Shown here piece by piece: positions 44,399 through 61,239 of a DNA stretch of 64,000 nucleotides; position 1 is the first letter of the stretch; the number at the start of each line of letters is the position of its first letter. The stretch is taken from contig NZ_LLZN01000059.1 in the NCBI RefSeq assembly GCF_001509795.1, forward strand, positions 24,815 to 88,814. Direction: 5' to 3'. The position numbers were made by a program, and so were the translations under genes. The notes beneath the pieces were generated by a model. That model did no database searches. It saw only the letters and a program-made list of their open reading frames with translations, and was not told the DNA's origin. This DNA is from Streptomyces sp. NRRL WC-3605 (GTDB taxonomy: Bacteria > Actinomycetota > Actinomycetes > Streptomycetales > Streptomycetaceae).

Positions 44399-44518
44399 TG
44401 CGTCTGCTCCTTCGGGATGGGGGAGGATGGGTTCTCCTCCTGCTCCGGTCTGGAGCGGGTTCGGAGCCCGGGGCGGCCGGCTGACCTTGGCCGGGATGGC
44501 GGCCGCCCCGGGGCGAAG

Positions 44519-45584: not shown

Positions 45585-45638
45585 GGTGGCTCCTTCGTCG
45601 TCGGGGAATCCGGCCTGGAGGACCGGGCGTTCACGCCA

Positions 45639-45681
45639 ACTCCCGCACTTCGGAACTGCCGGAGTTACAGAGTTCGGGAAT
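45639..45681. repeat. ACTCCGG repeat cluster 1
   Basis: A run of ACTCC, ACTTCGGAACT, CCGGAGTT and AGAGTTCGG units at roughly 10-bp steps, upstream of the 45584 gene. First of ten similar clusters between 45.6 and 60.5 kb. Confidence 0.6.
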
Positions 45682-45702
45682 CAGCGCGAGCGCCGGGGCG
45701 GG

Positions 45703-46551
45703 TCATTTGCTGGTGGTGCGGCGTTCGTCGTCGCCTTGGCGGGCGCGCTCGGTGGGGCGTTCGTGCTTGCCCTGGCGGGCGCGCTCGGCGCGGCGCTCGG
45801 CGGCCGCCAGGGCGGCGGCGGCCGGTCCGTCGCACTCGACGCAGGGGACGGAGATTCCGGGGGCGGTCATCCGGCCGGTGTCCTGGCACACCAGGCACTT
45901 CGGGCCCTTCTTGGGGGCCTGGACGCCGTAGGCCTTGCGGTAGGCGGATACCGGCGGGGTCTTCGGGGCTTTCGGCTTCGCCGGGCGGCGGGAGGCCGTA
46001 ATCGGTTCGACGCCTCCGGCCTGCATGATCCAGGCCGTCCGCAGCAGGGCGGCGACCGGGCGCATGGCCTCGTTGCGCACCCGCTTGCCGACCCTCTTCT
46101 TGGTCGAGCGGACCTTGCGGCGGATCTTCGCCCTCGCCTTGCGCCGGCCGTACTTTGCGACGTCGACTGCGGCCTTGCCGACCTCTTCGACGAGGTCGAT
46201 CGGCGGGGGCGGCTCCTCGCCGAACCCGGCCTCGATCAGCCACAGCCAGTCGGCCTCGTGCCGCCCGGCGCGAAAGCGGCAGTAGGCCATCCACTGCAGC
46301 ACGTCCACACGGCCCTCGACCCAGGTGTGCCCGACCGGGCAGGCGGCCTCCACCACGGCGTCCACGCCGCTCTTGTAGGCCAGCCGCAGGCCGGTGTCGG
46401 CTTCGCACACCGGGCAGGCGATCACGGTCGGAATCCACGCCCGGCGCCACGTGTGCTCGGGGTCCTCGATGACATAGCGGAAGCGGCGCTCGACTAACAG
46501 GTAGTGATCACCGTCGTCGGGGCTGAGGGCTCGCCACGGGCTGATCGGCAT
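45703..46551 (-). CDS. Hypothetical protein with two zinc-ribbon-like sites
   Basis: 282 residues from ATG 46551, with GGAGGAGA upstream. An N-terminal CPVCEADTG..CPVGH site, a Trp-rich segment (LQWMAYCRFRAGRHEADWLW), a very basic helix (YGRRKARAKIRRKVRSTKKR), then CLVCQDTGRM..CVECDG, a DnaJ-like half zinc finger, and a basic tail. Nucleic-acid binding likely; function unknown. Confidence 0.6.
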   Translation of the reverse strand: MPISPWRALSPDDGDHYLLVERRFRYVIEDPEHTWRRAWIPTVIACPVCEADTGLRLAYKSGVDAVVEAACPVGHTWVEGRVDVLQWMAYCRFRAGRHEADWLWLIEAGFGEEPPPPIDLVEEVGKAAVDVAKYGRRKARAKIRRKVRSTKKRVGKRVRNEAMRPVAALLRTAWIMQAGGVEPITASRRPAKPKAPKTPPVSAYRKAYGVQAPKKGPKCLVCQDTGRMTAPGISVPCVECDGPAAAALAAAERRAERARQGKHERPTERARQGDDERRTTSK

Positions 46552-46610
46552 CGGATCTCCTCCGGGGGAACAATCGTGATCTTTCGGGCGTAACAGCGGC
46601 GGAACTGAGA

Positions 46611-46738
46611 GGAACGTGCAGGTCAGAGCTGTGGAACAGGCCTGGAACAGGGGCCGGGAGGGGGGAACATGTTCCGGCCCGGGGCGGGGGTTCCGGCCCT
46701 GTTCCGGGCCGGTTCCCCCTCGCTGACCTGCATGTTTC
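46611..46738. repeat. Long imperfect palindrome of GGAAC/GTTCC repeats
   Basis: Centred on the perfect GGAACATGTTCC at 46664-46675. To the left GGAAC occurs repeatedly (46566, 46594, 46611, 46633, 46644); to the right GTTCC mirrors it (46690, 46701, 46712, 46744). TGCAGGTCAG (46617-46626) is mirrored by CTGACCTGCA (46723-46732). Between traB-like stop and the zinc-ribbon gene. Could be a terminator, a cis locus for transfer or a protein-binding array. Confidence 0.65.
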
Positions 46739-46757
46739 CGGGTGTTCCGGAAGCGGG

Positions 46758-49121
46758 TCAGCTCCCGTCGGTCTCGCCGATGAGCGTCTTGAGGTCGCGC
46801 AGGCGGTAGCCCTTGACGGTCTTGGAGGCGCCCTTGGGGCGGTAGGACTCCTTGGCCCACTTCTGGCCGCGCGGGGCCAGGACCTTGTCGAGCACCAGGG
46901 CCAGGACGGCGCCCTTGGTCATCGGCTCGCCGCCTTCGGGGCCGAAGCGGTCCAGGTCCCACGACGTCGGGTCGAAGCAGTGGAGCTGGTCGAACAGCTC
47001 GTCCTCCGTCAGGCCGCTCGGGTTGCCGAGGTCCCGGTAGATCGTGCGGATCGTGCGCAGCAGGACCGGGAGCGGTGTCTCCTCCCCGTCCTCGTGCTCC
47101 CACGGCTCGCCGCCGCCGGGGTTCGGCAGCACGACGCCGGGAGCGAACGCCGCCGACTCGGCGTCCAGCTCGCACAACCCCGCCTCAGCCCGTTCAACGG
47201 CCCGGCGGTCGGCCTCCTCTTCGTTGAGGATGCAGGCCCGGTACGGGATTGGCTCGCTGTAGTCGCCGCCCGCCAGTACGTACGCCACGGACGCGTCGTT
47301 GACGGCGTCGCCCATGGCGGGCAGCAGCCGGTCCGGCCGCCAGCCCTGGGCCATCGCGCCGCCGCCGGCGATCTGCACGATGTCGTCCTTGTCGCAGGCG
47401 CACATCACCTGGACCGGGAGCTCGGCCAGCCACATGTTCGCGCCCACCCGGTCACGGGTGACGCCCTGGGAGGCGATTTCCAGGCACACATCGGACTTCG
47501 CCGAGGTGAGAATGATCTGCTTGACCAGCTCATCCAGGCGGAGCGGCTTCTCCTCGCCCTCCTCGGTCTCGGGGAAGGTCTCGCTTTTGGCCGCCATGAC
47601 CAGCGCGGGGAATTCATCGATGACGATGGTGATTCCGGGTCGCTTCGGGCTGGCCTCCCAGTTCAGGCCCATTCCGAGCCGGTCGAACAGCTTCGGCCGA
47701 CCCATTCCGACTGCGAGGGCCCATTCGAGAACGACCCGGGCTTCCTTCGGCGTGCGGGCGACCGCGGACATGCACTTGCGGTACGGACCGAAGCCGGAAC
47801 CGTACGACCCGAGGTCGATGCCCACGATGATGCGGTCGCTGGTCGCGGTGAGCGCGTCCAGGCGGGCCCGCAGCATGGTCGACTTTCCGGAGCGGGACTT
47901 GCCGATGTAGGCCGCGCTGGTCCGCTTGCCCGGAAGGGCCAGGATGCGGCCGGACATGTCGGCGCCGAACTGCGCCTTGTGCAGCTCGTGCGTGGTGACC
48001 GACTTCGGCGCCCGGTAGGGGAGTTCCGGGACAGCCTTCCACGGGTTGGCGCCCGGGATGCGCAGCACGCATTCGTTGCGGGCCTGCTTGGACTGCTGCA
48101 GGAGCGCCGAGTTCGTGCGCACGCCCGGCAGGCAGGCTTCCAGCAGGTCCAGGTTCGCCGACAGCTTCTCCGGGGTCTGGTTCTTGAGCACGATCACGAT
48201 CTCGAAGCCCCAGCTGTGCAGGCGGACCTGCAAGGAGTGGACGGCGATGCCGACGTCCTTGGTCAGCGCCTCGTGGAGCATCGCCTCGAACGCACGCGGC
48301 GTCATGCCCATCTCGAACCGGTCCGGCAGACCGGCCTCGGTGCGCTCCAGCTCCTCCAGCTCCTCCGGCGACATGTCCGGCTGACGGCCGGCACGGGCCA
48401 GGACCGCGAGGTTGACCAGCACGCCCGCGCCCAGGCCGATCAGGCCGTCCATGAAAACGAACCCGGCGGCGTCGATCCCGGCCATCGGCAGGTAGGCGGC
48501 GGCCGCGCGCTGGAAGAACTTGCTGCGGGCCGTGGAGGCTGCCGTCGTGGCCTGGACCAGGGCCATTGAGGAGTTCTGCTGCGCGACGTCGGCGGCCTTC
48601 TTCTTCGCGTCCCGCTGGAGCAGCGCGAACTGGGCCCGGCGGGCCGCGCGCTCCGCTTCCCTCGCGAGCATCTCGGCACGGGCCTTGGCGGCGGCGGCGT
48701 TCTGCCCCTCGACCCCGCGCACCCAGCGGTGGATGCGCATGCCGCCGCGGACCGTGGTGGGCACCACGCCGCGCGGCGTCCGCTGCCGCGCCACCCACCG
48801 GCGGATCCGGCGCCGGGCCTGGCGCTGGACGTACACGCGGCGGGCCGTGCGCCCCTCCGGGGTGCGAAGCGCGGGGCTGATCCACGGTGCGTCGCCCTCC
48901 GGGTCCTCCCCCAGCTCCCACTCCCTGGCGGTGAACACCTTGCCCTCGACCGGCGCGGGCGCCTCGGGCTTGGTCATGTCGACGCGGGGCGCCGGCGCGG
49001 GGGTCTGTGGCGCCGGGGTGTCGGAGACCTCGGGCGTGCTGTCGGCGAAGGGCAGTCGGATCACCTTCGCGACCGGCTCGCCGTTGCCGTTCTTCGCCGT
49101 GCGCTCGTCGGTCTCGTTCAT
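46758..49121 (-). CDS. TraB/FtsK-like DNA translocase
   Basis: 787 residues. A disordered N-terminus, basic coiled region (100-180), one or two membrane helices near 208-240, then a RecA-like motor: Walker A GKSRSGKST (407-415), Walker B GITIVIDEFPAL with IDEF at 501-504, and a C-terminal winged-helix-like domain (KGYRLRDLKTLIGE). This is the mycelial double-strand transfer type of streptomycete plasmids, where a hexamer pumps DNA between hyphae. GAGGAGG precedes the ATG. Followed by Spd-like genes upstream and a GntR repressor, the classical arrangement. Confidence 0.82.
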   Translation of the reverse strand: MNETDERTAKNGNGEPVAKVIRLPFADSTPEVSDTPAPQTPAPAPRVDMTKPEAPAPVEGKVFTAREWELGEDPEGDAPWISPALRTPEGRTARRVYVQRQARRRIRRWVARQRTPRGVVPTTVRGGMRIHRWVRGVEGQNAAAAKARAEMLAREAERAARRAQFALLQRDAKKKAADVAQQNSSMALVQATTAASTARSKFFQRAAAAYLPMAGIDAAGFVFMDGLIGLGAGVLVNLAVLARAGRQPDMSPEELEELERTEAGLPDRFEMGMTPRAFEAMLHEALTKDVGIAVHSLQVRLHSWGFEIVIVLKNQTPEKLSANLDLLEACLPGVRTNSALLQQSKQARNECVLRIPGANPWKAVPELPYRAPKSVTTHELHKAQFGADMSGRILALPGKRTSAAYIGKSRSGKSTMLRARLDALTATSDRIIVGIDLGSYGSGFGPYRKCMSAVARTPKEARVVLEWALAVGMGRPKLFDRLGMGLNWEASPKRPGITIVIDEFPALVMAAKSETFPETEEGEEKPLRLDELVKQIILTSAKSDVCLEIASQGVTRDRVGANMWLAELPVQVMCACDKDDIVQIAGGGAMAQGWRPDRLLPAMGDAVNDASVAYVLAGGDYSEPIPYRACILNEEEADRRAVERAEAGLCELDAESAAFAPGVVLPNPGGGEPWEHEDGEETPLPVLLRTIRTIYRDLGNPSGLTEDELFDQLHCFDPTSWDLDRFGPEGGEPMTKGAVLALVLDKVLAPRGQKWAKESYRPKGASKTVKGYRLRDLKTLIGETDGS

Positions 49122-49220
49122 GCTGGTCTCGCCTCCTCTTCTGGGGTGGTGGCGAGACGGGGACGGCCATCGTCTTGGTCGGTGAGGGACCGGCCCCGTC
49201 TCGCTCTGTTCAGTTGGTCC

Positions 49221-49262
49221 GGGAGTCTGTGAGCCTGGGAGTTACGGACTTACAGACTCTGG
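49221..49262. repeat. ACTCCGG repeat cluster 2
   Basis: GGGAGTCTGTGAG, GGGAGTTACGGACTT and ACAGACTCTGG in succession, in the gap upstream of the TraB-like gene. Confidence 0.55.
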
Positions 49263-49277
49263 TTTGCGCGGCGTGTG

Positions 49278-50723
49278 TCAGCTGGTCGCGGCGAGGTGCA
49301 GGACCGGGTCGCCGTTGTGCTCGCGGTCGGCTTCCTTGATCCGCGCGCGGCACCAGGTCTCCCCGCGCACCATCCGCATGTTCTTCTCCGGCACCTCCTT
49401 CTCGAAGTACCGCTGCACGTCCCGCCAGCCCGTCTCCTGGCCCGCACGCAGCCGCGCGAGGACCCACTCGCGGGCCGCGTTCTTCTCGGCCTCGGCCTGC
49501 TCCGGGGTGGCCGCGCGAGCGGTCTCCGAAGCCAGCGCGCGGGCCGCGCGGGACTGCTTCGAACCGCCCTCGTCAACGGCCTTCTGGCGGCCTCGCACGG
49601 AGGGGGGGTTGTTGGGTTTGACCTGCTCCTTCGCGGCGTGCGTGCGGGCCGCGCGCGGGCCTTGTGCGGCCTCTCCAGCGGGGACCCCGGCACCCTTTTC
49701 GATCTTCGTGGCAGAGGTCTTCGCGTGGTCCGCGCGCAGAGCGTTCGCGGGGTCCGTGAGGATCTTCCCGATGGCCTCCGGGTTGATCATCCAGCCCTTG
49801 CCGGCGGGCACCTCGCGCACCGGCTCGACGGGCGCGTCGAACATCGCGAGCGACGCCGTGGGCCTCAGCTCGTCGTGCTGCTCGACCAACCCGGCGACCT
49901 TGTCCGCGCGCTTCCCGAACCGCTTGAGGATGCTCCTCTTCACGCCCGGCTCGGCGCCGTGTTCCTGGCGCCACGCACGGTCCCACGCCTCCCCCTTCGA
50001 CAGGGGCGGGATCGTCGCGGTGCGCAGCCACATGGCCCGCCAGGTGACACGCGGGTGGGTGATCCTCCGCAGCAGCGCGAGACGGATCTCCTCCGCGTTA
50101 CGACCGCTGGCCGCGTGGCTCTGGGAGTGCATGTAGATCTCCCAGACCGCCACGCCGAAGAGGCTGGAGGCGGCGAACACGATGGCGAGCTGTGGCTCGT
50201 CCGCGTGGTGCCAGGCGTTCAGCGCGGCCGCGACCGAGGCGAACAGCCAGGTCATCACCGTGTAGAGGCCCGCGGGCTTGTTGTTGGCGACCGCCCACTT
50301 GCGCAGCCACGCCATCGCCCACGTCGCGCCCTCGATGAAGACGGGCACCATCAGCGCCAGCACCCAGATCACACCGAGGCCGACCACCGCCGAGAACTGC
50401 CCGGGGAAGGCGAACGTGATGCTGGTGACCACCACGGTCATCACCCACGGCAGCGGCTGGCCGATCGCGGCGGCGAGCCGCTCGTTGCGGGCCTTGCGGG
50501 CAGCGGCCCGCTTCTCTCGGCGCTTGGCCTTCTCCTCCAGCCGCTTCGTCTTCGCCGCCTGCTTACGCAGCCGCTTGCGGTCGGCGGCCTTCTCGCGCTC
50601 CTCGGCGATCTGGATCTGCGTCAGGGCGTTGGTCTTGCGCCCCTCCGCCTCGGCGTGGGTGGCCGCCGCGCGGGCCTTGACCTTGTCCATCTGACGGCGG
50701 CCCTCGTAGGTCGTCGTCTCCAT
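49278..50723 (-). CDS. SpdB-like (DUF2637-type) membrane protein
   Basis: 481 residues. A charged coiled-coil N-terminus (DRKRLRKQAAKTKRLEEKAK), four membrane helices between about 92 and 205 (WVMTVVVTSITFAFPGQFSA, VIWVLALMVPVFIEGATWAM), a soluble middle and a basic C-terminus with EWVLARLRAGQETGWRDVQRYF, probably DNA-binding. The usual partner of TraB for intramycelial spread. Start overlaps the preceding stop. Confidence 0.75.
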   Translation of the reverse strand: METTTYEGRRQMDKVKARAAATHAEAEGRKTNALTQIQIAEEREKAADRKRLRKQAAKTKRLEEKAKRREKRAAARKARNERLAAAIGQPLPWVMTVVVTSITFAFPGQFSAVVGLGVIWVLALMVPVFIEGATWAMAWLRKWAVANNKPAGLYTVMTWLFASVAAALNAWHHADEPQLAIVFAASSLFGVAVWEIYMHSQSHAASGRNAEEIRLALLRRITHPRVTWRAMWLRTATIPPLSKGEAWDRAWRQEHGAEPGVKRSILKRFGKRADKVAGLVEQHDELRPTASLAMFDAPVEPVREVPAGKGWMINPEAIGKILTDPANALRADHAKTSATKIEKGAGVPAGEAAQGPRAARTHAAKEQVKPNNPPSVRGRQKAVDEGGSKQSRAARALASETARAATPEQAEAEKNAAREWVLARLRAGQETGWRDVQRYFEKEVPEKNMRMVRGETWCRARIKEADREHNGDPVLHLAATS

Positions 50724-50908
50724 CAGCGAGTCCTTTCCTGGCCGTGCCCCTGGCGGGCGCGGGTGACGCGGGCGATCGGGTCGGAGACGTGGAGGGAGGT
50801 CAGGACCTCCCAGGAGTCGAAGTCAGCGCCGGTCCAGTCCGTCATGTCCGAGGACTGCGGGACGGTGGTGGCCTGGCGGCCGCGCTGCGGGGTGGTCGCG
50901 GTCTGCAT
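50723..50908 (-). CDS. Small protein, 61 residues
   Basis: ATG 50908 with GGAGGCGG upstream; stop overlaps the SpdB-like start. Polar sequence with DMTDWTGADFDSWEVLTSLH and a basic RVTRARQGHGQERTR end. No family. Confidence 0.55.
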   Translation of the reverse strand: MQTATTPQRGRQATTVPQSSDMTDWTGADFDSWEVLTSLHVSDPIARVTRARQGHGQERTR

Positions 50909-51171
50909 CACGCCGCCTCCTTGTTCCGGAAGCCGCCCGCCACCGTGTGGAAGGCGGGGGAGGCGAGAGCGCCCGGCGGGGTGAGGACGGCGTCCAGGGC
51001 AATGACCACGAGGGCGATCAGCACCATGCCGACGCGGGCCATGACGCCCAACTCGATCCCGACCAGCCAGGCGCCGCCGGCCAGCGCGGCGAACAGCCGC
51101 ACCCGGCCCAGCATCACGGGCAGCAGGGATAACAGGACGGCCAGGCGGGGGTTGGAGGTCGTGAAGTTCAT
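50908..51171 (-). CDS. Small membrane protein (Spd-like)
   Basis: 87 residues with two or three hydrophobic helices (AVLLSLLPVMLGRVRLFAAL, GVMARVGMVLIALVVIALDA). Overlaps both neighbours (TGATG, ATGA). Position between GntR control region and TraB matches small spread proteins. Confidence 0.6.
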   Translation of the reverse strand: MNFTTSNPRLAVLLSLLPVMLGRVRLFAALAGGAWLVGIELGVMARVGMVLIALVVIALDAVLTPPGALASPAFHTVAGGFRNKEAA

Positions 51172-51455
51172 GCGGCCCGACCACCCTTCGCAGCGCTCAG
51201 GGCGGCGGTGCCGCGTCGCGGCATCAGCACCACGTTCGCCGGCGGGCGGACGCCCAGCACTCGGCGCAGGTGCTCGATGTTCTCGCGGTCGATGTCGTTG
51301 TCCGGGTCGCTGGTGTCCACCAGGAACTCCACGTAGGCGGCCCGCAGCTCGGGGGACGCGGCGCGGAGGGCGGCGAAGTCACTGCCGAAACCCATCGCGG
51401 CCTCGATGTACTCGCCCTCGCTGCCGACGATGCGGCCTGCGACGATGGTCTTCAT
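51168..51455 (-). CDS. Hypothetical protein, first gene of the tra-spd operon
   Basis: 95 residues: MKTIVAGRIVGSEGEYIEAA start, DTSDPDNDIDRENIEHLRRV helix, RGTAALSAAKGG end. Soluble alpha/beta. GAGAGG upstream of ATG 51455. Directly downstream of the GntR operators. Confidence 0.6.
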   Translation of the reverse strand: MKTIVAGRIVGSEGEYIEAAMGFGSDFAALRAASPELRAAYVEFLVDTSDPDNDIDRENIEHLRRVLGVRPPANVVLMPRRGTAALSAAKGGRAA

Positions 51456-51584
51456 AGGGTCGTGCCTCTCTACTCGGTCGGCCCTTGCGCGGGCTCTCCG
51501 GCTTGGCTTCCAGGCGCGGCCGGAGGGCCCGTTTTTGACATGGCTGTGCCCTTGGAAGAGGGCTTTCAGGCTTTCGCCGGTTGA

Positions 51585-51711
51585 GTTGAAATCTAGGTTT
51601 CTTCCGGCTGATCTGATGACACACTACCCAGTGAGGGATGTCAAGAACCTAGATTTCAACTGCTTCACCGACACGCTAGACAAGGCCTCGAATCGACGTT
51701 AAACCTAGATC
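51585..51711. promoter_or_regulatory. GntR (Kor-type) operators in divergent promoter
   Basis: Inverted arms GTTGAAATCTAGGTT (51585-51599) and AACCTAGATTTCAAC (51646-51660), and a third half, AACCTAGATC (51702-51711), just before the GntR gene. The 306-bp gap is low in GC. Arrangement indicates repression of both the leftward tra operon and the regulator itself, as known for KorSA/TraR-type proteins. Confidence 0.75.
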
Positions 51712-51762
51712 TGTCTTAGGGTGATCGCCCAGGACATCTACGACGGGGAGACAAGCACTCCA

Positions 51763-52569: not shown

Positions 52570-52958
52570 ATCGTCGTCGTCGGCCACGGCCGACGTTCAC
52601 CCGCCGGAGACGGCACAGGCCAGCAACAAAAGGTGTGTCCACCCGTTGGACAGCAAGGCAGGGAGAGGAAGATGAGGACCGTGACACGCCAGCAGCCCCC
52701 GTAGAAGGCCCCACAAACGCCGCGACGGCCGCCCCTTTGCCACGAGGGAACGGCCGTCTTGAGTCGACTCGCCACCTTGCAGAGCTACCGAGTCGTACGT
52801 CGGCGGTAACGCCGGGCACCAGACCACACGGGCCCGGGTACCGATATCAGAATAGCCAGACCCGGCCGCACCAAACAGCCACACGTGCGCCGCGTCACCT
52901 ATCTGGTGATGAACCCACCGTCGTACGGCTCCCCGATACCAGGGGAGACCCCAGCACG
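52570..52958. other. Noncoding stretch between GntR and the replication candidate
   Basis: 389 bp. Apart from the short hairpin at its left end I see no gene with coding bias and no clear promoter boxes. It must contain the promoter for the rightward micro-ORF/replication gene. Confidence 0.5.
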
Positions 52959-53033
52959 ATGAGCACCATCGCTCGACCGCCCGGCACGGACACCGTGCCG
53001 GCCTTCGCCGCCCCGAAAGGGGGTGCGCGTTGA
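52959..53033 (+). CDS. 24-residue leader ORF overlapping the replication candidate
   Basis: ATG 52959 encodes MSTIARPPGTDT.. and ends with TGA that overlaps the TTG start of the next gene (TTGA). Pro/Ala-rich, no domain. Its role is probably to set translation of the downstream gene. Confidence 0.4.
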   Translation: MSTIARPPGTDTVPAFAAPKGGAR

Positions 53034-54427
53034 GGAAGCGTTCAGGACGGCCGCCACGGTTCGCCGCCGTCCCCAATGAGACCGTAGACGACTCGGACAG
53101 CCTCGACCTGGAGGCCTTGGGCCTGCTGACCGTAGTCCTGCGCCACCAGGACGGCTTCGAGATCACCCTGCACGAGATCGCCGAGAAGTACGGCTACGGC
53201 CGGGACGGCCTGGCCGGCGCCTGGGGCCTGCTCCAGGTCGCCCGGTACGTCATCAAGGTGAAGATCCAGTGGGCCGGGGACAACCAGTGGTCGACCGAGG
53301 TCGTCGTGTATCCCACGCCCGCCACGGACGACGAAGTCCAAGAACTGCTGGACAGCATCGCGCGCGAGCCGAACGTGCGGATCGTGAAGGTGGAGCCGCC
53401 GACGAAGTCGGCCCGGGAGCGGGCAGCGAAGCACCTCGCGAAGGTGGAGGCCAAGCGGAAGAAGAAGCGGGAGCGCCGCAAGCTCGACTTCGAGGTGCCG
53501 GGCCAGGCTGCCGAAAGCGGTCGGGGCCGGAATGTCCGTAGGGGAGAGGATCGGGGGAGCGGAGCCGCCGGCGCGGCGGCTCCGGCTCAACCGCCCCGGA
53601 AGTCGGTGGCGCCGAAGAAGCCGACGAAGAAGAAGGAGCCTGGCAGGCGGCTGACACAGTCTGAGGCGGCCGCGGTGAAGCTCGTGGAGACGGCGTTCCC
53701 CGAGCAGCTGCGTGCCTTGCTTCCGTCGTACCGGCCGCCGGTGCTGCGGGACGCGATCCTGGACGCTCTGGATTCGCGTACGGCGGACGTGCTGGCCGAG
53801 CGGGTGAAGCGCCGGTGGTGGAAGCACGGCTACGAGGAAGCGGCCATGCCGGGCGGCAAGGGCATCGGCTCGGCGATCGGCGTCGCGGTCGCACTGGTTC
53901 GCCCGTCGACGGACTGCCCGGAGCCGATGTGCGAGGACGGCGTGATCCTCGACTCCGGGGCGGCGTGCCGGGGGTGCGAGCAGCGCAAGGAGGACCGGAA
54001 GCGCCCGGTGCCCGCGCAGCGCGGCGAGCCCGGCGAGGACCAGGGCGGCGGAGTCCCGGCCCCGCGCCGGTGGAAGTGCCACACCTGCCACACGCCGGGC
54101 AAGACCGGCGTGGAGGCTCCCGAGGACGGCCTGTGCGGCCCGTGCCGCAAGGAGGAGCAAGAGGCGCACAAGGCGACGGCCCGGCTGCAGGAGAACCTGC
54201 GGCGGGCGGAGGCTGAGCGCGAGCAGCTGGCGCGCGAGCGGTGGAACGAGCTGCTGGAGGATGCCTACCGCGAGCACGCCGAACGCGAGCAGGAGGCCTC
54301 TAAGGAGCGCGAGCGTCGGAAGGCGGCGGAAAAGAAGCGGCTGGCGGACGCCGAGGAGCGGCGCCGTCTGCAGGAGCAGATCGCCCGGGAGAACCCCGAA
54401 CTGCTGGCCTACTCGCAGACCGCCTGA
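53030..54427 (+). CDS. Winged-helix, zinc-motif protein: candidate replication initiator
   Basis: 465 residues from TTG 53030, with GAAAGGGGG six bases upstream. N-terminal winged helix (LDLEALGLLTVVLRHQDGFE, IAEKYGYGRDGLAGAWGLLQ), as in DnaD/RepA-like plasmid proteins; a basic linker (KVEAKRKKKRERRKLDFE); a second helical domain (KRRWWKHGYEEAAMPGG); Cys pairs CPEPMC..CRGC and CHTCHT..CGPC; and a C-terminal coiled coil. It is followed by a terminator and an iteron-like hairpin region, the context expected for a Rep gene. No Rep family could be named by eye. Confidence 0.55.
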   Translation: MRKRSGRPPRFAAVPNETVDDSDSLDLEALGLLTVVLRHQDGFEITLHEIAEKYGYGRDGLAGAWGLLQVARYVIKVKIQWAGDNQWSTEVVVYPTPATDDEVQELLDSIAREPNVRIVKVEPPTKSARERAAKHLAKVEAKRKKKRERRKLDFEVPGQAAESGRGRNVRRGEDRGSGAAGAAAPAQPPRKSVAPKKPTKKKEPGRRLTQSEAAAVKLVETAFPEQLRALLPSYRPPVLRDAILDALDSRTADVLAERVKRRWWKHGYEEAAMPGGKGIGSAIGVAVALVRPSTDCPEPMCEDGVILDSGAACRGCEQRKEDRKRPVPAQRGEPGEDQGGGVPAPRRWKCHTCHTPGKTGVEAPEDGLCGPCRKEEQEAHKATARLQENLRRAEAEREQLARERWNELLEDAYREHAEREQEASKERERRKAAEKKRLADAEERRRLQEQIARENPELLAYSQTA

Positions 54428-54441
54428 CGCAGGTCAGGGAA

Positions 54442-54469
54442 GGCCGCACCCCACCGCCGGGGTGCGGCC
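54442..54469 (+). terminator. Hairpin terminator of the replication candidate
   Basis: Perfect 11-bp stem GGCCGCACCCC / GGGGTGCGGCC with 6-nt loop, 15 bp after the stop. Confidence 0.85.
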
Positions 54470-54480
54470 CCTCAGCATGT

Positions 54481-54530
54481 CCGAGTCCGTGACTCTGCGA
54501 GTACCGGACTGCCGGAGTGCCGGAATCCGG
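54481..54530. repeat. ACTCCGG repeat cluster 3
   Basis: CCGAGTCCGTGACTC, GAGTACCGGACTG, CCGGAGTGCCGGAATCCGG in about 10-bp steps directly after the terminator. Confidence 0.6.
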
Positions 54531-54783
54531 CGGCCCTGGCCGTGCGCGATCCATACGCGTGCACGACCGGACGGCGGCCAGGGCCTGCTCGACGGCTCGT
54601 GCGGGTCTTACCCGACGCCATACTCGTGGCCCAGGGCCTGCAGCGGGTGTGCGAGTTCGCCGATGTCGACGCTGCGGGCGAGGTGGCCGTACCGGTCGTA
54701 GACCCGCGTCCAGCGGATCTCAGCGCGGTGTCACATCCCGGCCCCTGAACCGCCCTTCGAACCTCTCTATCGAAGCGTTTTCC

Positions 54784-54866
54784 CAGGTCAGACCCGACAC
54801 CCGGTTTTTCGGTTGTCGGGTCTGACCTGCGTAAATGGTTCGTTTCCGCAGGTGGGACCCGACAAC
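54784..54866. other. Origin candidate: hairpin with CAGGTCAGACCCGACA arms plus third copy
   Basis: CAGGTCAGACCCGACA (54784-54799) is repeated inverted at 54814-54829 around a T-rich loop, and a third related copy CAGGTGGGACCCGACAAC lies at 54849-54866. To the right, 54900-54950 is relatively AT-rich with the direct repeat TTAGAAGAC, a possible unwinding site. Located just after the replication candidate gene, inside a 1.5-kb gene-free region (54428-55989). Confidence 0.55.
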
Positions 54867-55155
54867 AGGGTTTCCCGGGCCCCGGGGAAGGCCGGTGTCC
54901 CTTTAGAAGACTGGGGTTGTTAGAAGACGAGAGAGAACACAAAAGCGCCTTGCGGCGCGTGCGCCGCTGGTGACGCCCGGAGGGCTAAGTAACCGGTAGT
55001 AGCGCGCGAGCGCGTCCGAGGCGGCTCCGCCGCGACCGATGGCGCCGCGGCGCCAGACAGTTCCCCCCTCCCCATCGAGATCCATCGGCCGGCCGGTGGC
55101 CACCAGCTCGCCCGTCACCAGGCAGGCGTGGGCGGGCAACCTTCCCCTCTCGTCT

Positions 55156-55357
55156 CCCTAACAGGCCCTTGCGCCCGTCCCTCACTGTCCCTCTCTCCCC
55201 TGGTACAGGGGATCGTGGCACCCTCACCGCCGTGGCCGGAGGCGACCCCCTCACGCTGAAAGCGCAGGTCGTGACCGCAACTCCGACGAGAGCCGCGGGG
55301 TGATGGCGGGCGAAGCGACCGGCTGGCGCCGGTCCAGGGCGCAAGGGCCTGTTAGGG
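55156..55357. repeat. Perfect 21-bp inverted repeats bounding 160 bp
   Basis: Left arm 55156-55176 begins CCCTAACAGGCCC; right arm 55337-55357 is its exact complement and ends GGGCCTGTTAGGG. The interior has its own small hairpins (CCCCTG-GTA-CAGGGG near 55197-55211; ACCGG/CCGGT near 55318-55333) and no ORF. MITE-like element, replication structure or regulatory RNA are all possible. Confidence 0.65.
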
Positions 55358-55989
55358 GTAAGAGGAGGGTGGCGCGGACCCGTCACAGGTGGGGGCTGAG
55401 GCCGGGGCCCGGGTGACGGCCCCTCGTGGCTTGGGTGATGACGGGCCCGCGCCGTGGGTGGCCGGGCTGAGTGCGCACGCTCAGGCCAACCCATAGAAGG
55501 GACGCCCTACGGGCGGCGACCACAAAGAGACGGCGGTGCGTCCCTGTGCGCCCCTGTACGGCTCTCAGGGCTTGATCGGCACTCCCGGGCCTCCACCCCG
55601 GGAACGGAGCTCCTGGCGCCATGCAGAGGTGTTCTCGGCGGTGTTCTGTGGCGGGCGTGACGAGCGGTTCCGCAGGAACGCGGACCCTGCCCTCCCCCGT
55701 TGGGCGTCGTTCAGGCGGTTCGCCGGCGGCGCCGCGGCCAGCCACTACTGCAAGCACGTCACCCCGCACCCGGTCGACGACTTCGACTGACGCCGGGTAC
55801 CGAAAACGGAAGTCCCGGAGTCTGTGACTCCGGGACTTCGGCATATCGGGACTCCGGCACTCACGGCCTCGATCCGGTGAAGCCGCCTGCCTAGGCTCGG
55901 CAACGCCCCCGGTTGACTGGGAGCAACAGACCCGCAGGGTCGAAATCCCCGTCTCGTAGGGGCTGTTGCCGCTGGCACTATGTGACGTC
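55358..55989. other. Gene-free stretch before the DUF4145 gene
   Basis: No frame shows streptomycete third-position bias. It contains repeat cluster 4 and, near its right end, a structured segment (GCAACAG...CCCC-n8-GGGG-CTGTTGC, about 55921-55973). Confidence 0.5.
55808..55866. repeat. ACTCCGG repeat cluster 4
   Basis: GGAAGTCCCGGAGTC, TGTGACTCCGGGACTTCGG, CATATCGGGACTCCGG, CACTCACGG: one of the most regular clusters. Confidence 0.65.
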
Positions 55990-56790
55990 ATGACAAGCAT
56001 CTTGAACCGGGATCTTCGGGCCATCTCTAAAGGTCTCTCAGGGGACCACCTGGAGGACTGGCCCGCCATCCCGTGCCCCACGTGCACGCGAGGCGTCCTG
56101 CTCCCGGACCCCGACTCCTTTGTGTCTGAGGAGTCGGCCACCAGCCGGGCCCTGGTGAACCACGAGGCGTGGGAGCCGGAATGGATTCAAGGTGGCTTCC
56201 ACGGCGTTCTCACGTGCCGGAAGGAGACTTGTGATCGCGTGCGCGTCATCGGGGAGATGAGCGTGGACTACTCAAGTCGGCACGGCGAGCAGTACGAGAT
56301 CTACTGGACGCCCACCCTGTTCCTCCCGGCGCTGCCGCTGCTCGAAAACCGCGAGCTCTGCCCACCGGAGGTCGGGGTGCGGGTGGACGCCGCAGCCAAG
56401 ATTCTCTGGCTCGACCCCAGCGCTGCCGCGAACAGGATCCGGGCGGCGGTCGAAGCCCTGATGGACGACAGGGGCGTCATCCGCCGGCAGCTCAACAGCA
56501 AGGGCAAGGTAGTCCGACTCGACCTCGACAGGCGTATCGCGATCTTCAAGAAGGCGCTGTCGCAGCACGCGGATGCTGCGGACCTGCTCCTGGCCGTGAA
56601 GTGGATCGGGAACGTGGGCAGCCACGAGGACGTTCTCCGGGTTCCCGACGTCCTGGAGGGGGTCGAGTTCCTGGACCGCGCGCTGTCTGAGATCTACGGG
56701 ACAAGCCCCGACGACGTGAAGAAGAGGGCAGCTGAGGTCACCGCTCGGCGCGGGCGCCCGCAGGCCTTCTCCGTCGAAGTCCCCTTCTGA
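55990..56790 (+). CDS. DUF4145-containing protein
   Basis: 266 residues from ATG 55990 (a longer start at 55966 is possible). The N-terminal part has a CPTC..C..C zinc-like set (IPCPTCTRGV, LTCRKETC). The C-terminal half carries the DUF4145 helices (ANRIRAAVEALMDDRG, DLDRRIAIFKKALSQHADAA, AVKWIGNVGSHED). This domain occurs in anti-phage and restriction-associated proteins. Flanked on both sides by repeat clusters. Confidence 0.75.
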   Translation: MTSILNRDLRAISKGLSGDHLEDWPAIPCPTCTRGVLLPDPDSFVSEESATSRALVNHEAWEPEWIQGGFHGVLTCRKETCDRVRVIGEMSVDYSSRHGEQYEIYWTPTLFLPALPLLENRELCPPEVGVRVDAAAKILWLDPSAAANRIRAAVEALMDDRGVIRRQLNSKGKVVRLDLDRRIAIFKKALSQHADAADLLLAVKWIGNVGSHEDVLRVPDVLEGVEFLDRALSEIYGTSPDDVKKRAAEVTARRGRPQAFSVEVPF

Positions 56791-56821
56791 CCTGGCTGTC
56801 GGCAGGCGCGCCAGAAACGGG

Positions 56822-56884
56822 GTGCCGGAGTCCGTCACTTCGGAACTGCCGCGTACTCCGGCTGTCCGGTACTCACGGACTCGC
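56822..56884. repeat. ACTCCGG repeat cluster 5
   Basis: GTGCCGGAGTCC, GTCACTTCGGAACTG, GTACTCCGGCTGTCCGGTACT, CACGGACTC in about 10-bp steps, 32 bp after the DUF4145 stop. Confidence 0.6.
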
Positions 56885-57137
56885 CCTGTCGTCACCGAGC
56901 GCCCGGGCCTGCACCAGTCCGCGGTCCGCGCGCTGTACGAGCGTTTGGACCGGCTCCAGTCCGCGGCCGCTCCGGCTGGCGAGGCGTCGACGGCCGCGCG
57001 TCTCCCTGAGCCTTCTCCCGGCGCCTTCCCCCGTGGGCCCGGGCGACGACGAAGCCCCCGGCGGTTGCTCCTGCACCGAGCGCCGCCGGGGGCTTCTCCA
57101 CGGCTGCAGGCCATGGCCGCAGCAGTGGCGTCTCTTC

Positions 57138-57208
57138 CGTAGTACCGGAGTACCGGAGTTCCGGACTACCGTAGTACCGGAGTGCGGAACTCCCGTACTA
57201 CGGGATTG
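57138..57208. repeat. ACTCCGG repeat cluster 6
   Basis: Dense run of GTAGTACCGGAGTACCGG, AGTTCCGGACTAC, CGTAGTACCGGAGTGCGG and CGTACTACGGG; about seven units in 70 bp. Lies after the recombinase-like gene. The preceding 56885-57137 has no clear gene. Confidence 0.65.
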
Positions 57209-57227
57209 GAGAGTGTGGCCTCCGAGG

Positions 57228-58451
57228 TCATCCGGCTTGGGCCTTGGAGGGGCGCCCCCACCCGGCGGCCCTCTCGATCGCATCGAGCAGGGCTGGCTCC
57301 CACCCGGCAGCGGTCAGGTCGGCGGTGTCGGTAAGACCGACCTCGACCAGCGCGGACAACTGCATCGCGTGCTCGATGCCCTCAGCCCACGCCGCCCGCA
57401 GAGCTTTGCGGCAGGCCACTCGCGCTTCGAGTTCCTCGGTGGTGTCCGGCTCGCCGGAACGCCGCACAGAGGCAAGGACGCGGCCGCACTCGGTGACCTC
57501 TTCCAGGAGGACGGCCGCCTGTTCGGCGTCGGGCTGGCGGGGCGCCGGTGAGGTCTTCGGGCTGACGCCACGGCGCAGCTGTTCCATGCGGGTGGGCAGG
57601 GGAACCCATGAGGGTTCGCCGGCCATCTGCACGTTGGTCTGCGTGACAGCCCGGGTCCATGCCCGGTAGAGGCCGCGCGGCTCCAGAGGAGTCCCGGACG
57701 GGACGGCGTGCTCGCCGCGGTGGTTGGGGTGCAGGGAGACCCACAGTGCCGTGGTGGTGCCCTGCACGCGCTCCATGAGTGCGTGCCGCTCGGTGAGCCA
57801 GCGACGCAGGGCCGCCCGGGACAGCCCTGACAGAACGGCCAGTTCGACGTAGGCCTCCGCCTCGCTCCAGCCCTGGGGCCTGCGCAGCGTCCGGACCTCT
57901 TCGAGTGACGGCGCCAGGTCGTCGAGCCGCCACGCGCACGCCTCGCCGGAGCGGGCTCCGCTGTCGGCGACCATCGCGCCGATGGCGAGCATCCGGATCT
58001 GCCCCGGCGAGGCGGCCTGGTCGGCGGCTTCCTCCAGGGAGGCCCGCAGCAGGGAACGGGCCCGCTTGGGAACGGGCTGCTTGCGGACCGGATCGGGCTG
58101 CGGTGGCAGGTCGGCGCACACCCCTGCAGCCTTCGCCAGGAGCGCCAGGACCTCGATGCGAGCCTGCCGCGAGTGGTCGCCGCTGGCGGGTGAGGCGGAC
58201 CGTCGCACTCGCAGGTCACCGCGGCCCGCCAGCGCGAGGTAGGCCTCGATGGCTTGGCGCTGGAACAGCGGTCCGGCTTCGGCGCCGGCGTCGAGCGGGT
58301 GCTCGGCGTGGGCGAGAGCGCGGCCGTACTCGCCCGCCACCCACCGCACCTGGCGGGCGCGGGACTCGGAGATGCCCTCTTCGCGCGAACACACCTCTGC
58401 GGCGGCCGCGCGCAGCAGGTCCGGGCCGGTGAGGCTTTGATCGGCGCCCAT
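57228..58451 (-). CDS. Divergent tyrosine-recombinase-like protein
   Basis: 407 residues from ATG 58451, overlapping the previous stop. MLAIGAMVADSGARSGEACAW resembles the box-I Arg region of tyrosine recombinases (xGxRxxEL), and WVPLPTRMEQLRRGV loosely resembles box II, but the conserved HxxR and catalytic Tyr are not clear. The N-terminal helices would fit a core-binding domain. It could be an inactive relative or a DNA-binding protein of the partition region. Confidence 0.4.
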   Translation of the reverse strand: MGADQSLTGPDLLRAAAAEVCSREEGISESRARQVRWVAGEYGRALAHAEHPLDAGAEAGPLFQRQAIEAYLALAGRGDLRVRRSASPASGDHSRQARIEVLALLAKAAGVCADLPPQPDPVRKQPVPKRARSLLRASLEEAADQAASPGQIRMLAIGAMVADSGARSGEACAWRLDDLAPSLEEVRTLRRPQGWSEAEAYVELAVLSGLSRAALRRWLTERHALMERVQGTTTALWVSLHPNHRGEHAVPSGTPLEPRGLYRAWTRAVTQTNVQMAGEPSWVPLPTRMEQLRRGVSPKTSPAPRQPDAEQAAVLLEEVTECGRVLASVRRSGEPDTTEELEARVACRKALRAAWAEGIEHAMQLSALVEVGLTDTADLTAAGWEPALLDAIERAAGWGRPSKAQAG

Positions 58452-58837
58452 CAGCGAGCCCTTCCGCCGATGGCGGGCCGTCGTACGGCCTGCCGCACAC
58501 CGCGGTTCGCCGGGGACCACGAGAGCGCGGTGCCGCCGTGGTACTGCCGGAAGACGGTGTCCTTGGCCAGGCGGGCGGCCGCACCGATCTCCGCCCAGGT
58601 TGCGGCCTTGCCCTCCGGGCGGCCCTCGCCGCGCAGGGCTCGGCCCGCCGTTTCGTGCGCGGCGCGGCCGGCGGCGTCGGCGACGAGCATCATCAGTTCG
58701 AGCTGGAGCAGGGGATCGACCGCGAGGCCGACCGCCGTGGCGAGCAGCTGCACACGGTCGGCCGGTGCCGTCCCGCTGGCGTTGGCCTGCCGGACGAGAT
58801 CGGCGATCTGCTCGGCCATCATGTCGACGTTGTCCAC
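58451..58837 (-). CDS. HTH protein, likely autoregulator
   Basis: 128 residues from GTG 58837 with GGAAGGAC upstream. A helical N-terminus (NVDMMAEQIADLVRQANASG), then a C-terminal HTH, ATWAEIGAAARLAKDTVFRQYHGG. Two GTTGT/ACAAC operators sit immediately upstream, so it probably represses itself; the same site recurs near 35.0 kb. Confidence 0.65.
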   Translation of the reverse strand: MDNVDMMAEQIADLVRQANASGTAPADRVQLLATAVGLAVDPLLQLELMMLVADAAGRAAHETAGRALRGEGRPEGKAATWAEIGAAARLAKDTVFRQYHGGTALSWSPANRGVRQAVRRPAIGGRAR

Positions 58838-58849
58838 CCGAGTCCTTCC

Positions 58850-58907
58850 GTTGTTTCGACACAACGAACAGCGGCAGCCTAGTGCGGATGCGTTGTGCCG
58901 ACACAAC
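58850..58907 (-). promoter_or_regulatory. Two GTTGT-n6-ACAAC operators
   Basis: GTTGTTTCGACACAAC (58850-58865) and GTTGTGCCGACACAAC (58892-58907), 42 bp apart centre to centre (about four helical turns), directly upstream of the HTH gene. Confidence 0.7.
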
Positions 58908-58950
58908 CAACGGGCGCAGTTCGGCGTGAACTGCGCCCGTTTGGCTGAAA

Positions 58951-58992
58951 TTACAGACTCCGGAACTGCCGGACTACGTGACTACCGGGCTT
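58951..58992. repeat. ACTCCGG repeat cluster 7
   Basis: TTACAGACTCCGGAACTG, CCGGACTACGTGACTACCGGG; it runs into the end of the ParB-type gene. Confidence 0.6.
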
Positions 58993-59461
58993 CCCCGTTC
59001 ACTCCAGACCCCTCCAGGCCGGTGCCGTCCTGGGCCGCTGCGGCTCGACGCCGGGGCAGGACGGACTGCAGCAGAGCCTCTTCGGTGTCTCCGTGGAGCC
59101 GGTGGGAATGCCCCTGCAGCAGCAGGTCGACCGCGACCCGGATCAGCGTGTTGTCGGTGATGATCTCCGACTTGTCACGGCGGCGGGAGCTTACGTGCCG
59201 GCGCAGCTCAGCAAGCTCGGTGAGCTGGTCGGAGCGCAGGCGGGCCTCCTTGCGTTCCAGCGTCGTCCACTTCGGATCTCCGGAACTCTGAGACTCCGGG
59301 ACTACGGGAGTCACAGGCTCCGGAACTTCGGAAGTCTGCGACTCTAGGCTCAGCCCTTCTCGGCCGAGGAGGGACTCGACCTCGGGAACGAGCGGCTTGC
59401 GGTCGCTGTCGCTTATCTCGGATGTGGCGGGGACAACGGACCGCGACCTCGGCGGTGTCAC
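58982..59461 (-). CDS. ParB-type partition adaptor with repeat-encoded insert
   Basis: 159 residues from GTG 59461, which overlaps the parA stop (GTGA) and has AAGGAG inside the parA 3' end. Residues 78-117 (RSDQLTELAELRRHVSSRRR, KSEIITDNTLIRVAVDLLLQ) look like a ribbon-helix-helix or HTH DNA-binding domain of plasmid ParB/ParG-type adaptors. Residues 39-64 (Glu/Ser/Pro/Val-rich) are encoded by repeat cluster 8. It should bind a centromere and stimulate ParA. Confidence 0.7.
   Translation of the reverse strand: MTPPRSRSVVPATSEISDSDRKPLVPEVESLLGREGLSLESQTSEVPEPVTPVVPESQSSGDPKWTTLERKEARLRSDQLTELAELRRHVSSRRRDKSEIITDNTLIRVAVDLLLQGHSHRLHGDTEEALLQSVLPRRRAAAAQDGTGLEGSGVNGEAR
59270..59346. repeat. 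ACTCCGG repeat cluster 8, inside the ParB-type gene
   Basis: TCTCCGGAACTCTGAGACTCC, GGGACTACGGGAGTCAC, GGCTCCGGAACTTCGGAAGTC, GCGACTC: seven or so units in 77 bp, entirely within coding sequence and kept in frame. Confidence 0.65.
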
Positions 59462-60270
59462 GCGAACTCCTTGATCATGCGCTGGGCGGCGAGCTTGTAG
59501 ACGTCCCGCATCTCGTTGGACCGGCTGCCGAGGTCCGCGAGCGGCAGAGCCTCGTCGGCGGCGTCCTTCACGATGGACCGCCTCGGGATCGGTTCCCAGA
59601 CCCGGTCTTCACCGAAGATGCCCGGGAGCGTCTTGAGGTGGTGAGCGTGACCGGCGAGACGGCCGTCGACCATGGACGGGATGGCGGCCGCGAAAGCCAG
59701 ATCCGGATTGCCCATCTCGGTGCGGTTGATCTCGCTCGCGATGAAGTCGCGGAAGCGCACGGCCCCGTCGACGCCGTCGTACTCCGGTTCCACCAGGGCG
59801 ACGCCCCAGCGGGCGGCGGCCAGGGCGAGCTGGGTGAGATGCCCCAGGGAGGGCTGACAGTCGAACAACGTGAAGTCGTAGTCGTCATCGACGCCCTGCA
59901 GGGCCCGGGCCAGACGTCCACGCGATCCGATCACGGCGGCCTCGGAGATGCGGTTCTCCAGGTCGAACCGCGAGGGGATGATGTCGATGCGCTGGGCGTA
60001 GATCCCGTCCCATCCGCACGGCACGATCGCGTCGGCGGCCGCGCCGACCTCACCCGACTTGATGACCTCGGCGGTGGTGACGAGCGGCTTCTCCTTGCGG
60101 TAGGGGCGCCCCATCCTGCGCGAGACGTTCGCCTGCGGGTCGACGTCGACCACCAGGACCCTGCACCCCTCTTCGGCGAGCGCGGCCGCGACGTTCGCCA
60201 CCCAGCCGCTCTTGCCGACGCCGCCCTTGTTGTTGCCGGCTGCGACACGCTTGCTTCTGCGCTGCGGCAT
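59458..60270 (-). CDS. parA: ParA-type partition ATPase
   Basis: 270 residues from ATG 60270, with GGAAGGAGAG upstream. Deviant Walker A NNKGGVGKSG (13-22), then VLVVDVDPQANVSRRMG (Walker A'), and Walker B YDFTLFDCQPSLGHLTQLAL. It dimerises on DNA and positions plasmid copies through the adaptor encoded downstream. Two repeat clusters lie upstream and one inside the next gene. Confidence 0.92.
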   Translation of the reverse strand: MPQRRSKRVAAGNNKGGVGKSGWVANVAAALAEEGCRVLVVDVDPQANVSRRMGRPYRKEKPLVTTAEVIKSGEVGAAADAIVPCGWDGIYAQRIDIIPSRFDLENRISEAAVIGSRGRLARALQGVDDDYDFTLFDCQPSLGHLTQLALAAARWGVALVEPEYDGVDGAVRFRDFIASEINRTEMGNPDLAFAAAIPSMVDGRLAGHAHHLKTLPGIFGEDRVWEPIPRRSIVKDAADEALPLADLGSRSNEMRDVYKLAAQRMIKEFA

Positions 60271-60288
60271 GAGTCTCTCCTTCCTCGA

Positions 60289-60345
60289 TCCGGGACTCTG
60301 CAACTCCGGCAAATCCGGAGTCTGTGACTTCGGCAGTCTGGCATT
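60289..60345. repeat. ACTCCGG repeat cluster 9
   Basis: CCGGGACTCTGCAACTCCGG, AAATCCGGAGTCTGTGACTTCGG, CAGTCTGG immediately upstream of the parA start, in the probable promoter/leader. Confidence 0.65.
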
Positions 60346-60433
60346 CTCCCTGAGACACCCGACGGTGAACTGCCGACGTCGCCGTTTCACGCACCCGCCG
60401 CCGGCTGCACCCCTCGGGTTGAGCACCAGCGCG

Positions 60434-60510
60434 AAGTACCGGAGTGCGTGAGTCCCAGAGTCAGCGACTCCGGAACTGACGTACTTGCAGACTCACAGAG
60501 TTCGGCATTG
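60434..60510. repeat. ACTCCGG repeat cluster 10
   Basis: AAGTACCGGAGTGCGTGAGTC, CCAGAGTCAGCGACTCCGG, AACTGACGTACTTGCAGACTC, ACAGAGTTCGG. The remaining gap to 60744 shows no gene; a promoter for the rightward genes is presumably there. Confidence 0.65.
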
Positions 60511-60744
60511 AAGCCGTGCTACAGCCGAAGCTCACTCTCATTGCGTGTGGCGAAATGCCTGGTCGGAAGGGGTGCGGAATTGCGACTGCAGGAGCCAGGG
60601 GAGCACTTCTGCGCCGTATGGTCATCGGGCATGGATCACGCGCGCCGCTGATCCCTCGCGCGGGTTGAGCCCCCGTCGTGCAGGTGCGGCCGTGCAGGAC
60701 TCGGGTCGCGCCGCCCGAGTTCTTGGGTCAACGGGGAGGACGTT

Positions 60745-61161: not shown

Positions 61162-61239
61162 CGCACTCGCTGCCCTCCCGACCGCCCGGCGGGCCGTCGA
61201 CGCTGAGGCTGCGCCGGGCCCCGCAGCTTGGAGAACGAC

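Follow-up and report, generated by a model that had tools for sequence, protein, structure and literature searches.

Phased ASTnCSGn arrays as a probable multi-site centromere of a ParB-type protein on a Streptomyces plasmid contig

Introduction

Ten clusters of short repeats lie scattered among the replication and partition genes of a Streptomyces contig. What are they, and which protein reads them? They occur in a 64,000-bp stretch of Streptomyces sp. NRRL WC-3605 (hereafter the window), which is the right-hand 64 kb of the 88,814-bp contig C59 (NZ_LLZN01000059.1) in a 7.58-Mb assembly; a further 24.8 kb of the contig lies to the left. The initial annotation took the clusters for a 10-bp-periodic ACTCCGG repeat, forming either a multi-site centromere of the ParB-type protein encoded at 58982-59461 or a nucleoid-like coating signal. 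The centromere is the best-supported reading, since the arrays track the ParB family across phyla and are missing from four plasmids that share backbone genes and lack this ParB. We consider it likely that they are the centromere and autoregulatory operator of a type-I ParABS system with a ribbon-helix-helix (RHH) ParB, and that this protein binds them. A nucleoid-like coating signal separate from partition is conceivable.

Array unit and period

All clusters are arrays of a degenerate palindromic octamer, ASTnCSGn (S = C or G), repeated at an 8-bp step for about six to eleven steps. Two scores were used, one for the match to five ASTnCSGn units (maximum 30, cut-off at least 24) and one for AST every 8 bp (maximum 18, cut-off at least 16 or at least 15, as stated). 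By the first, 34 start positions on the contig reach at least 24/30, compared with a mean of 0.07 in 60 first-order Markov simulations of equal length. Nine of the ten clusters score at least 24/30 and the tenth, at 49221, was recovered by AST every 8 bp (at least 16/18), which confirms that the clusters are real. Their period is 8 bp and not the 10 bp, or helical turn, first assigned to them: AST phasing at 15/18 or more gives 11 arrays on C59 with period 8, and 0, 1 and 0 with periods 7, 9 and 10. As a literal motif the heptamer ACTCCGG is also weak, with 23 occurrences in the window vs 16.5 expected and 6 of 100 shuffles at least as high; being barely enriched, it leaves the phased unit as the signal. 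The occurrence in both orientations, rightly noticed before, is explained by the degenerate palindrome of the unit.

Among 81 units of C59, position 1 is A in 85%, position 3 is T in 95%, position 5 is C in 67% and position 7 is G in 67%, and the base frequencies are much alike in five other plasmids. These units were chosen with the ASTnCSGn pattern itself, each required to have at least two of A, S and T, so it is the agreement between plasmids and the free positions that carry the information. Two score-23 matches inside the rep-like gene (window 53711-53750; 44418-44457 in the related violaceus plasmid) were dropped as coding sequence without AST steps. Rfam (gathering threshold) and tRNA scans of the window gave no match.

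The contig has 12 arrays in total, ten in the window and two to its left (C59 10143-10198 and 10286-10333). The absence of arrays from 1-45 kb is thus true for the window, and does not extend to the part of the contig left of it. The reported crowding near parA holds as well: with the contig treated as a circle, the 12 arrays fall within 28.7 kb of 88.8 kb, and none of 20,000 random placements left an equally large array-free gap. The ends of C59 showed no overlap in the tests made; two relatives are recorded as circular. The exact 19-mer ASTnCSGnASTnCSGnAST is confined to C59 (14 of 14 places in the assembly). Allowing up to one mismatch raises this to 27 places, of which 24 are on C59, compared with 12 genome-wide for the reversed control pattern. 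The motif is therefore not equally frequent on the host chromosome, and a host-chromosome repeat is ruled out.

Association with the ParB family

A ParB profile search, with one genome per species, gave 61 loci from Actinobacteria and Cyanobacteria. Within the parAB region (up to 2.5 kb), 45 of the 61 reach at least 16/18 at period 8, compared with a mean of 0.1 and a maximum of 1 in 40 rounds of dinucleotide shuffling. Control periods 5-7, 9-11 and 13-15 give 0-1 loci, period 4 gives 6 and period 12 gives 13. When whole loci are scored at 15/18 or more, period 8 is found in 52 and periods 7, 9 and 10 in 7, 4 and 1. Loci with parAB-region arrays range from 38 to 72% G+C and include actinobacteria and cyanobacteria. 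The control pattern TSA reaches threshold in 5 of the 61 loci; in two of these, L052 and L060, the array is itself a near-perfect tandem run. Other three-letter patterns at period 8 score in more loci (SSS 48, SAS 35, STS 30, AAS 26). A high SSS count is expected in G+C-rich DNA, and we take the SAS, STS and AAS scores, by inspection, as shifted readings of the same AST arrays.

These counts bear on the idea that the arrays are RNA hairpins (terminators or stability elements), or belong to a palindromic repeat that spreads and has no binder of its own. The unit is indeed palindromic, the ten window arrays have RNA folding z-scores between -0.8 and -5.0 (100 mononucleotide shuffles), and a violaceus array (40175-40238) ends in a T run. 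However, z is -2.1 or weaker in four of the ten, a T run is found beside none of them, and neither the strict 8-bp register nor the tie to a single ParB family across phyla would be explained. We regard this idea as very unlikely.

Thirteen plasmids with ParB were whole or nearly so (50 of 60.8 kb for Geminocystis): eleven named ones, C59 and Ru62 (contig G110:C35). Eleven of them hold 8-bp AST arrays at 15/18 or more, namely C59 (11), violaceus (10), HF10 (8), Ru62 (9), NBC_01725 (5), Saccharopolyspora (4), NBC_00304 (6, as three mirrored pairs), pRL1 (9), Nostoc (5), pChr15 (2) and Geminocystis (4), while ADI95 and Cryobacterium have 0. Control periods 7, 9 and 10 give 0-2 arrays in each of the 13. 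The 41.5-kb NBC_00304 record (NZ_CP108035.1) is a mirror image with its genes present twice, inverted, which could be a real inverted duplication or an assembly effect.

The spread of the arrays also speaks to transfer. The FtsK-like protein TraB is reported, in the part of the literature consulted, to recognise 8-bp TRS repeats on Streptomyces plasmids (PMC4170104), and the arrays could be clt-type sites of this kind; the array-bearing NBC_01725 does encode an FtsK/SpoIIIE-domain protein. Yet arrays accompany ParB in cyanobacterial loci and in many further actinobacterial ones, and violaceus and HF10, both close relatives, are of the MOBP type and encode TraM-recognition or type IV secretion system coupling-type proteins. 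Among 20 contig proteins scanned with Pfam there was no FtsK match. Judged by distribution, rather than by TRS sequence, a TraB site is highly improbable.

Four pFP1-type plasmids have 0 arrays, and tblastn found no member of the ParB family there (best E 1.1). In common with C59 they have the recombinase-like gene (4 of 4, 63-65% identity), parts of the rep-like gene and a 481-aa gene (3 of 4). With the backbone kept and both ParB and arrays gone, the arrays are separable from the backbone and tied to ParB. A different small protein is encoded after parA in these plasmids (L091:10238-10609, L092:33078-33449, L093:25022-25387 and L094:14153-14524). Binding by the neighbouring helix-turn-helix (HTH) protein (58451) or the recombinase-like protein (57228) was worth considering, since each gene has arrays on either side and is conserved in violaceus, HF10 and Ru62. 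Against it, all four pFP1-type plasmids keep the recombinase-like gene and lack arrays, so these proteins are unlikely binders; moreover, neither gene was found (E<=1e-4) in seven other array-bearing relatives (L013, L015-L019 and L021). Of all the alternatives, this seems to us the least probable.

Among 150 genomes of the same genus, a strong ParB match was found in the own genome and in that of Ru62 alone (E 3e-97 and 3e-56). The same two are the only ones with at least three exact 19-mer places more than 1 kb apart on a contig shorter than 100 kb. At least one exact 19-mer is present in 72 of the 150, and three or more in 17. Fifteen of these 17 were set aside: their 19-mers form short tandem runs, lie megabases from each other on a chromosome-sized contig (G103 and G127) or are spread over several contigs.

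Part of the family has a different step. Five of the nine loci without an 8-bp array have a 7-bp A-R-Y-T array upstream of parA (L032:3684, L036:117, L038:8925, L039:9082 and L075:8269), as does the Cryobacterium plasmid (L020:1310-1660); the six come from Cryobacterium, Subtercola and Curtobacterium. They score 23-24/24, the next best of 77 loci being 20. A ParB tree, which lacks 9 of 73 loci including L075, puts the other five 7-bp-locus proteins into a single clade (support 1.0). Helix 1 holds many of the columns that distinguish them from a comparison group, which contains array-less loci. Adjacent RHH dimers are often in contact through helix 1.

The ParA and ParB-type proteins

The parA gene (59461-60270, - strand) encodes a 270-aa Walker ATPase (Pfam AAA_31, 5e-30) matching Soj/ParA and Orf delta' structures. 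Its presumed start agrees with the annotated start in violaceus, whose ParA is 88.5% identical over residues 1-270. The 159-aa parB (58982-59461, - strand; protein P0001) begins at the parA stop codon; this gene and the recombinase-like gene were delimited from annotated relatives and translations. Of 12 named relatives, 10 have the ParB relative adjoining a gene annotated as ParA, the exceptions being ADI95 and a Mycobacterium avium plasmid.

P0001 has a predicted disordered tail and linker followed by a probable RHH domain (about residues 66-117). In the AlphaFold2 monomer, residues 1-62 have low pLDDT and no secondary structure, and are followed by an extended stretch and helices at 77-93 and 103-117. 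Its relatives, compared as sets of 11 and 84 sequences, have a common C-terminal domain with invariant R70, R74 and Q79, a helix TDNTLIRxAVD and a variable tail ahead of it. E72 is also invariant in the 11 relatives, and is conserved in at least 90% of the 84. Judging from the model, the C-terminal domain is probably of the RHH type with R70, E72 and R74 facing DNA; as alternate residues of a strand, they would fit base contacts.

The ParB-like family is large (1058 proteins at E<=0.001 among 7997 scored candidates), and its members are not necessarily all partition proteins. Some show weak, chance-like matches to unrelated families, and there was no ParB/Spo0J family among the 25 listed of 29 families for the 84 members at E<=1. 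A KilA-N domain (PF04383) accompanies the ParB-like part in 13 of 120 homologues listed (P0004, P0018, P0020 and others, 313-381 aa); the one with a named source is cyanobacterial. In a plasmid search, 29 Thermus plasmid records match P0001.

Placement of the arrays and reading frames

Arrays are found upstream of parA in 11 of the 13 plasmids (overlapping the parA start in Nostoc) and inside parB in 9 of 13. On C59, with the parA start placed at 60270, the array at 60295-60342 is 25-72 bp upstream of it, and is the presumed operator as well as centromere; a second one upstream of parA is at 60435-60522. The array at 59261-59348 is within the parB frame, where it encodes the linker ahead of the presumed DNA-binding domain, and the array at 58949-59004 straddles parB at its 3' end and lies upstream of the next - strand gene. 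The top-scoring array, at 30/30 (57125-57212), comes just past the 3' end of the recombinase-like gene (- strand, ending at 57228), and the array at 56805-56886 directly follows the + strand DUF4145 gene (55990-56790).

Another array, at 55803-55874, is on the far side of a non-coding region that may hold the origin. There, after a rep-like gene of 465 aa (53030-54427, + strand), three GACCCGACA repeats, one of them inverted, are found at 54791-54864 and could be origin iterons. The rep-like gene has no Pfam match, its role is presumed, and its partial relatives in the four pFP1-type plasmids have 41-51% identity. Directly 3' of it is the array at 54476-54547, with a counterpart in HF10 and none within 1.5 kb at that place in violaceus or Ru62. 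The array at 49216-49263, below the 24/30 threshold, separates the 481-aa gene (49278-50723, - strand) from a 787-aa gene (46758-49121, - strand), and the array at 45623-45686 is upstream of a 130-aa gene (45192-45584, - strand). At the other side of the par genes, window 61228-63918 encodes a protein of 896 aa that has weak methyltransferase/Eco57I and ResIII matches and may act in restriction or defence.

Array sites match among the four plasmids of 85-91 kb (C59, violaceus, HF10 and Ru62). At the par genes there are arrays upstream of parA and after parB; others follow the recombinase-like gene, separate the 481-aa from the 787-aa gene and precede the 130-aa gene. A further matching site is inside a giant gene, in all four at 1.13-1.32 kb before the stop codon. 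The array inside parB is present in three of the four, the exception being HF10, whose annotated ParB is shorter. Arrays at matching sites can be aligned and vary, yet mostly retain their ASTs. As the flanking DNA is conserved too, this synteny may partly reflect recent common descent. The giant gene itself, with no function assigned, starts near the contig end on C59 (132-11465) and is probably cut; frames of 14.5-16.5 kb are present in L009, L012 and G110:C35.

The parB arrays of C59 and violaceus and the giant-gene arrays encode a similar peptide (TPEVPDS-like), since three 8-bp units make eight codons. Over the 17-30 codons of each array, third-position G+C is 0.60 vs 0.83 for the rest of parB in C59, 0.63 vs 0.86 in violaceus, and 0.63 and 0.71 in the giant-gene arrays vs 0.86 for the whole giant gene. 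This low third-position G+C, with the same unit present in non-coding DNA, points to selection on the DNA and not on the peptide alone. Within reading frames the DNA unit, not solely the peptide, seems to be constrained; a shared function of the peptide is possible.

The dispersed arrays could instead be mainly operators, with ParB as a plasmid-wide repressor and partition through the parA arrays alone; we weigh this and the centromere as mutually exclusive. Arrays lie upstream of the parA, 130-aa and 787-aa genes in all four plasmids compared. In the parts of the literature consulted, RHH ParBs are reported to repress promoters overlapping parS (PMC9499535, PMC5016525), and omega of pSM19035 and KorB of RK2 are likewise reported as repressors. 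Two window arrays, however, lie between converging genes (ending at 56790 and 57228), an arrangement that suggests they do more than serve as operators. In HF10 and Ru62 too, converging genes flank the array that follows the recombinase-like gene; in violaceus a same-strand gene comes after it, which slightly weakens this objection. Arrays within parB and deep in the giant gene are also where no promoter is expected. A mainly operator role is, in our judgement, unlikely.

Proposed function

For the centromere, we suggest the following mechanism. ParB dimers would read ASTnCSGn, one dimer per 8-bp step, and coat each array cooperatively, and ParA would move the ParB-array complexes on the nucleoid. 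The centromere would then consist of about twelve separate arrays, spread over some 29 kb that include the putative origin and the par genes. ParB bound to the array directly upstream of parA (60295-60342) would also repress parAB. Having so many arrays may bring more ParB to each plasmid, pair or fold the origin region, or build a regulon.

Several observations weigh against this proposal. ADI95 has ParB without an 8-bp array at threshold; it has a weak one (14/18) before parB and no annotated ParA. The Cryobacterium plasmid also has ParB and no 8-bp array at threshold, with 7-bp arrays instead. On the M. avium plasmid (a 5-kb piece) the ParB relative is apart from the ATPase gene and there is one weak array, at the relative's 3' end. 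Four of the 61 loci (L044, L062, L072 and L082) are below both array thresholds, two of them ending within 0.8 kb of parB. In the genus, G070 has a weak ParB-like match (E 3e-4) on a contig without an exact 19-mer. Some arrays are neither near a promoter nor at a shared place.

Other points against it concern the protein. For P0001, searches of Pfam, NCBIfam and PHROGs gave no match, and the families listed for its 83 relatives include none of RHH or partition proteins. Among solved structures its profile had one match, a lipoprotein at E 0.57. Foldseek on two models gave nothing below E 0.001, VIA-align likewise gave no support for the RHH fold, and the monomer models show an extended stretch and helices with no assigned strand. 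A missing family or fold match is no proof of a different fold.

If the proposal is correct, a probable DNA code can be assigned to a large unnamed ParB-like family, and centromeres could become readable from sequence in many plasmids. The presence of 8-bp and 7-bp versions in one family makes it testable, with related proteins, how RHH proteins set array spacing, and the arrays in reading frames suggest a centromere shaping a protein linker. We hold a wider view only tentatively: one actinobacterial and cyanobacterial ParB family would use a conserved AST code, with a step that in one clade changed from 8 bp to 7, and on Streptomyces plasmids its centromere would have spread into about a dozen arrays, some of them coding, making a third to half of the plasmid one partition and regulatory domain. 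Literature searches (titles and abstract openings) gave, among the matches listed, nothing on this ParB family, an ASTnCSGn centromere or an 8-to-7-bp switch; an earlier description is possible.

Comparison with known systems

We file the system as a variant of type-I partition with a ParB of presumed RHH fold. It shares with type Ib a Walker ParA gene, a small gene adjoining parA, a predicted flexible N-terminal part and a short-repeat array upstream of the par operon. Neither omega nor ParG was among the solved structures listed for the ParB profile. In TP228 the boxes reportedly read ACTC at 8-bp steps. As described in the parts of the source consulted, the ParF-ParG-parH system of TP228 resembles the present one in its ParA and its small protein with a disordered N-terminal tail, and in an array of short boxes with spacers upstream of parFG that serves as centromere and operator; the difference is that TP228 has a single locus (PMC7308502).

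Type-I RHH systems are described, in the portion of the source consulted, as binding statically to repeat arrays (PMC13245405). In the excerpts consulted on pSM19035 delta/omega, parS comes in three versions, with 9, 7 and 10 units, each in two copies (PMC5016525, PMC9499535), and full ParA stimulation by omega needs at least four contiguous repeats (PMC9499535). The mode of action proposed here for ParB is the one reported for omega. By that rule, arrays of about six to eleven steps would be long enough. As far as those excerpts go, the two systems share contiguous short units, direct and inverted, several arrays per plasmid, and one array overlapping the ParA promoter. In contrast to the 7-bp non-palindromic WATCACW of pSM19035, the unit here is the 8-bp palindromic ASTnCSGn, and AST at period 7 gives no array on C59. 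C59 also differs in its roughly twelve arrays, some inside reading frames, and in having parA and parB adjacent.

Scattered sites, held by the initial annotation to be unlike most plasmids, are less unusual than it supposed, since several separate centromere sites are reported for pSM19035, for the OB sites of RK2 and for chromosomal parS, in the part of the source consulted (PMC5016525). The arrays resemble OB and parS in being scattered on the plasmid or, for parS, round the chromosomal origin, and RK2 KorB is reported, in the same partial sources, to be both centromere binder and repressor (PMC5016525, PMC11790492). Those systems have HTH ParBs, and longer inverted-repeat sites rather than contiguous octamers; no such domain was found in the ParB described here. 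Should the dispersed arrays work jointly, they would form an RHH equivalent, with many arrays, of the parS clusters near chromosomal origins. The nearest likeness within Streptomyces plasmids is SpdA2/sps of pIJ101, where, according to the excerpt consulted, the site also lies in the coding region of its own DNA-binding stability protein and ParA goes unmentioned (PMC4170104). Its sps is reported there as a 12-bp palindrome, CGTCACGTGACG, in one to three copies, and by inspection the arrays of C59 differ from it in sequence.

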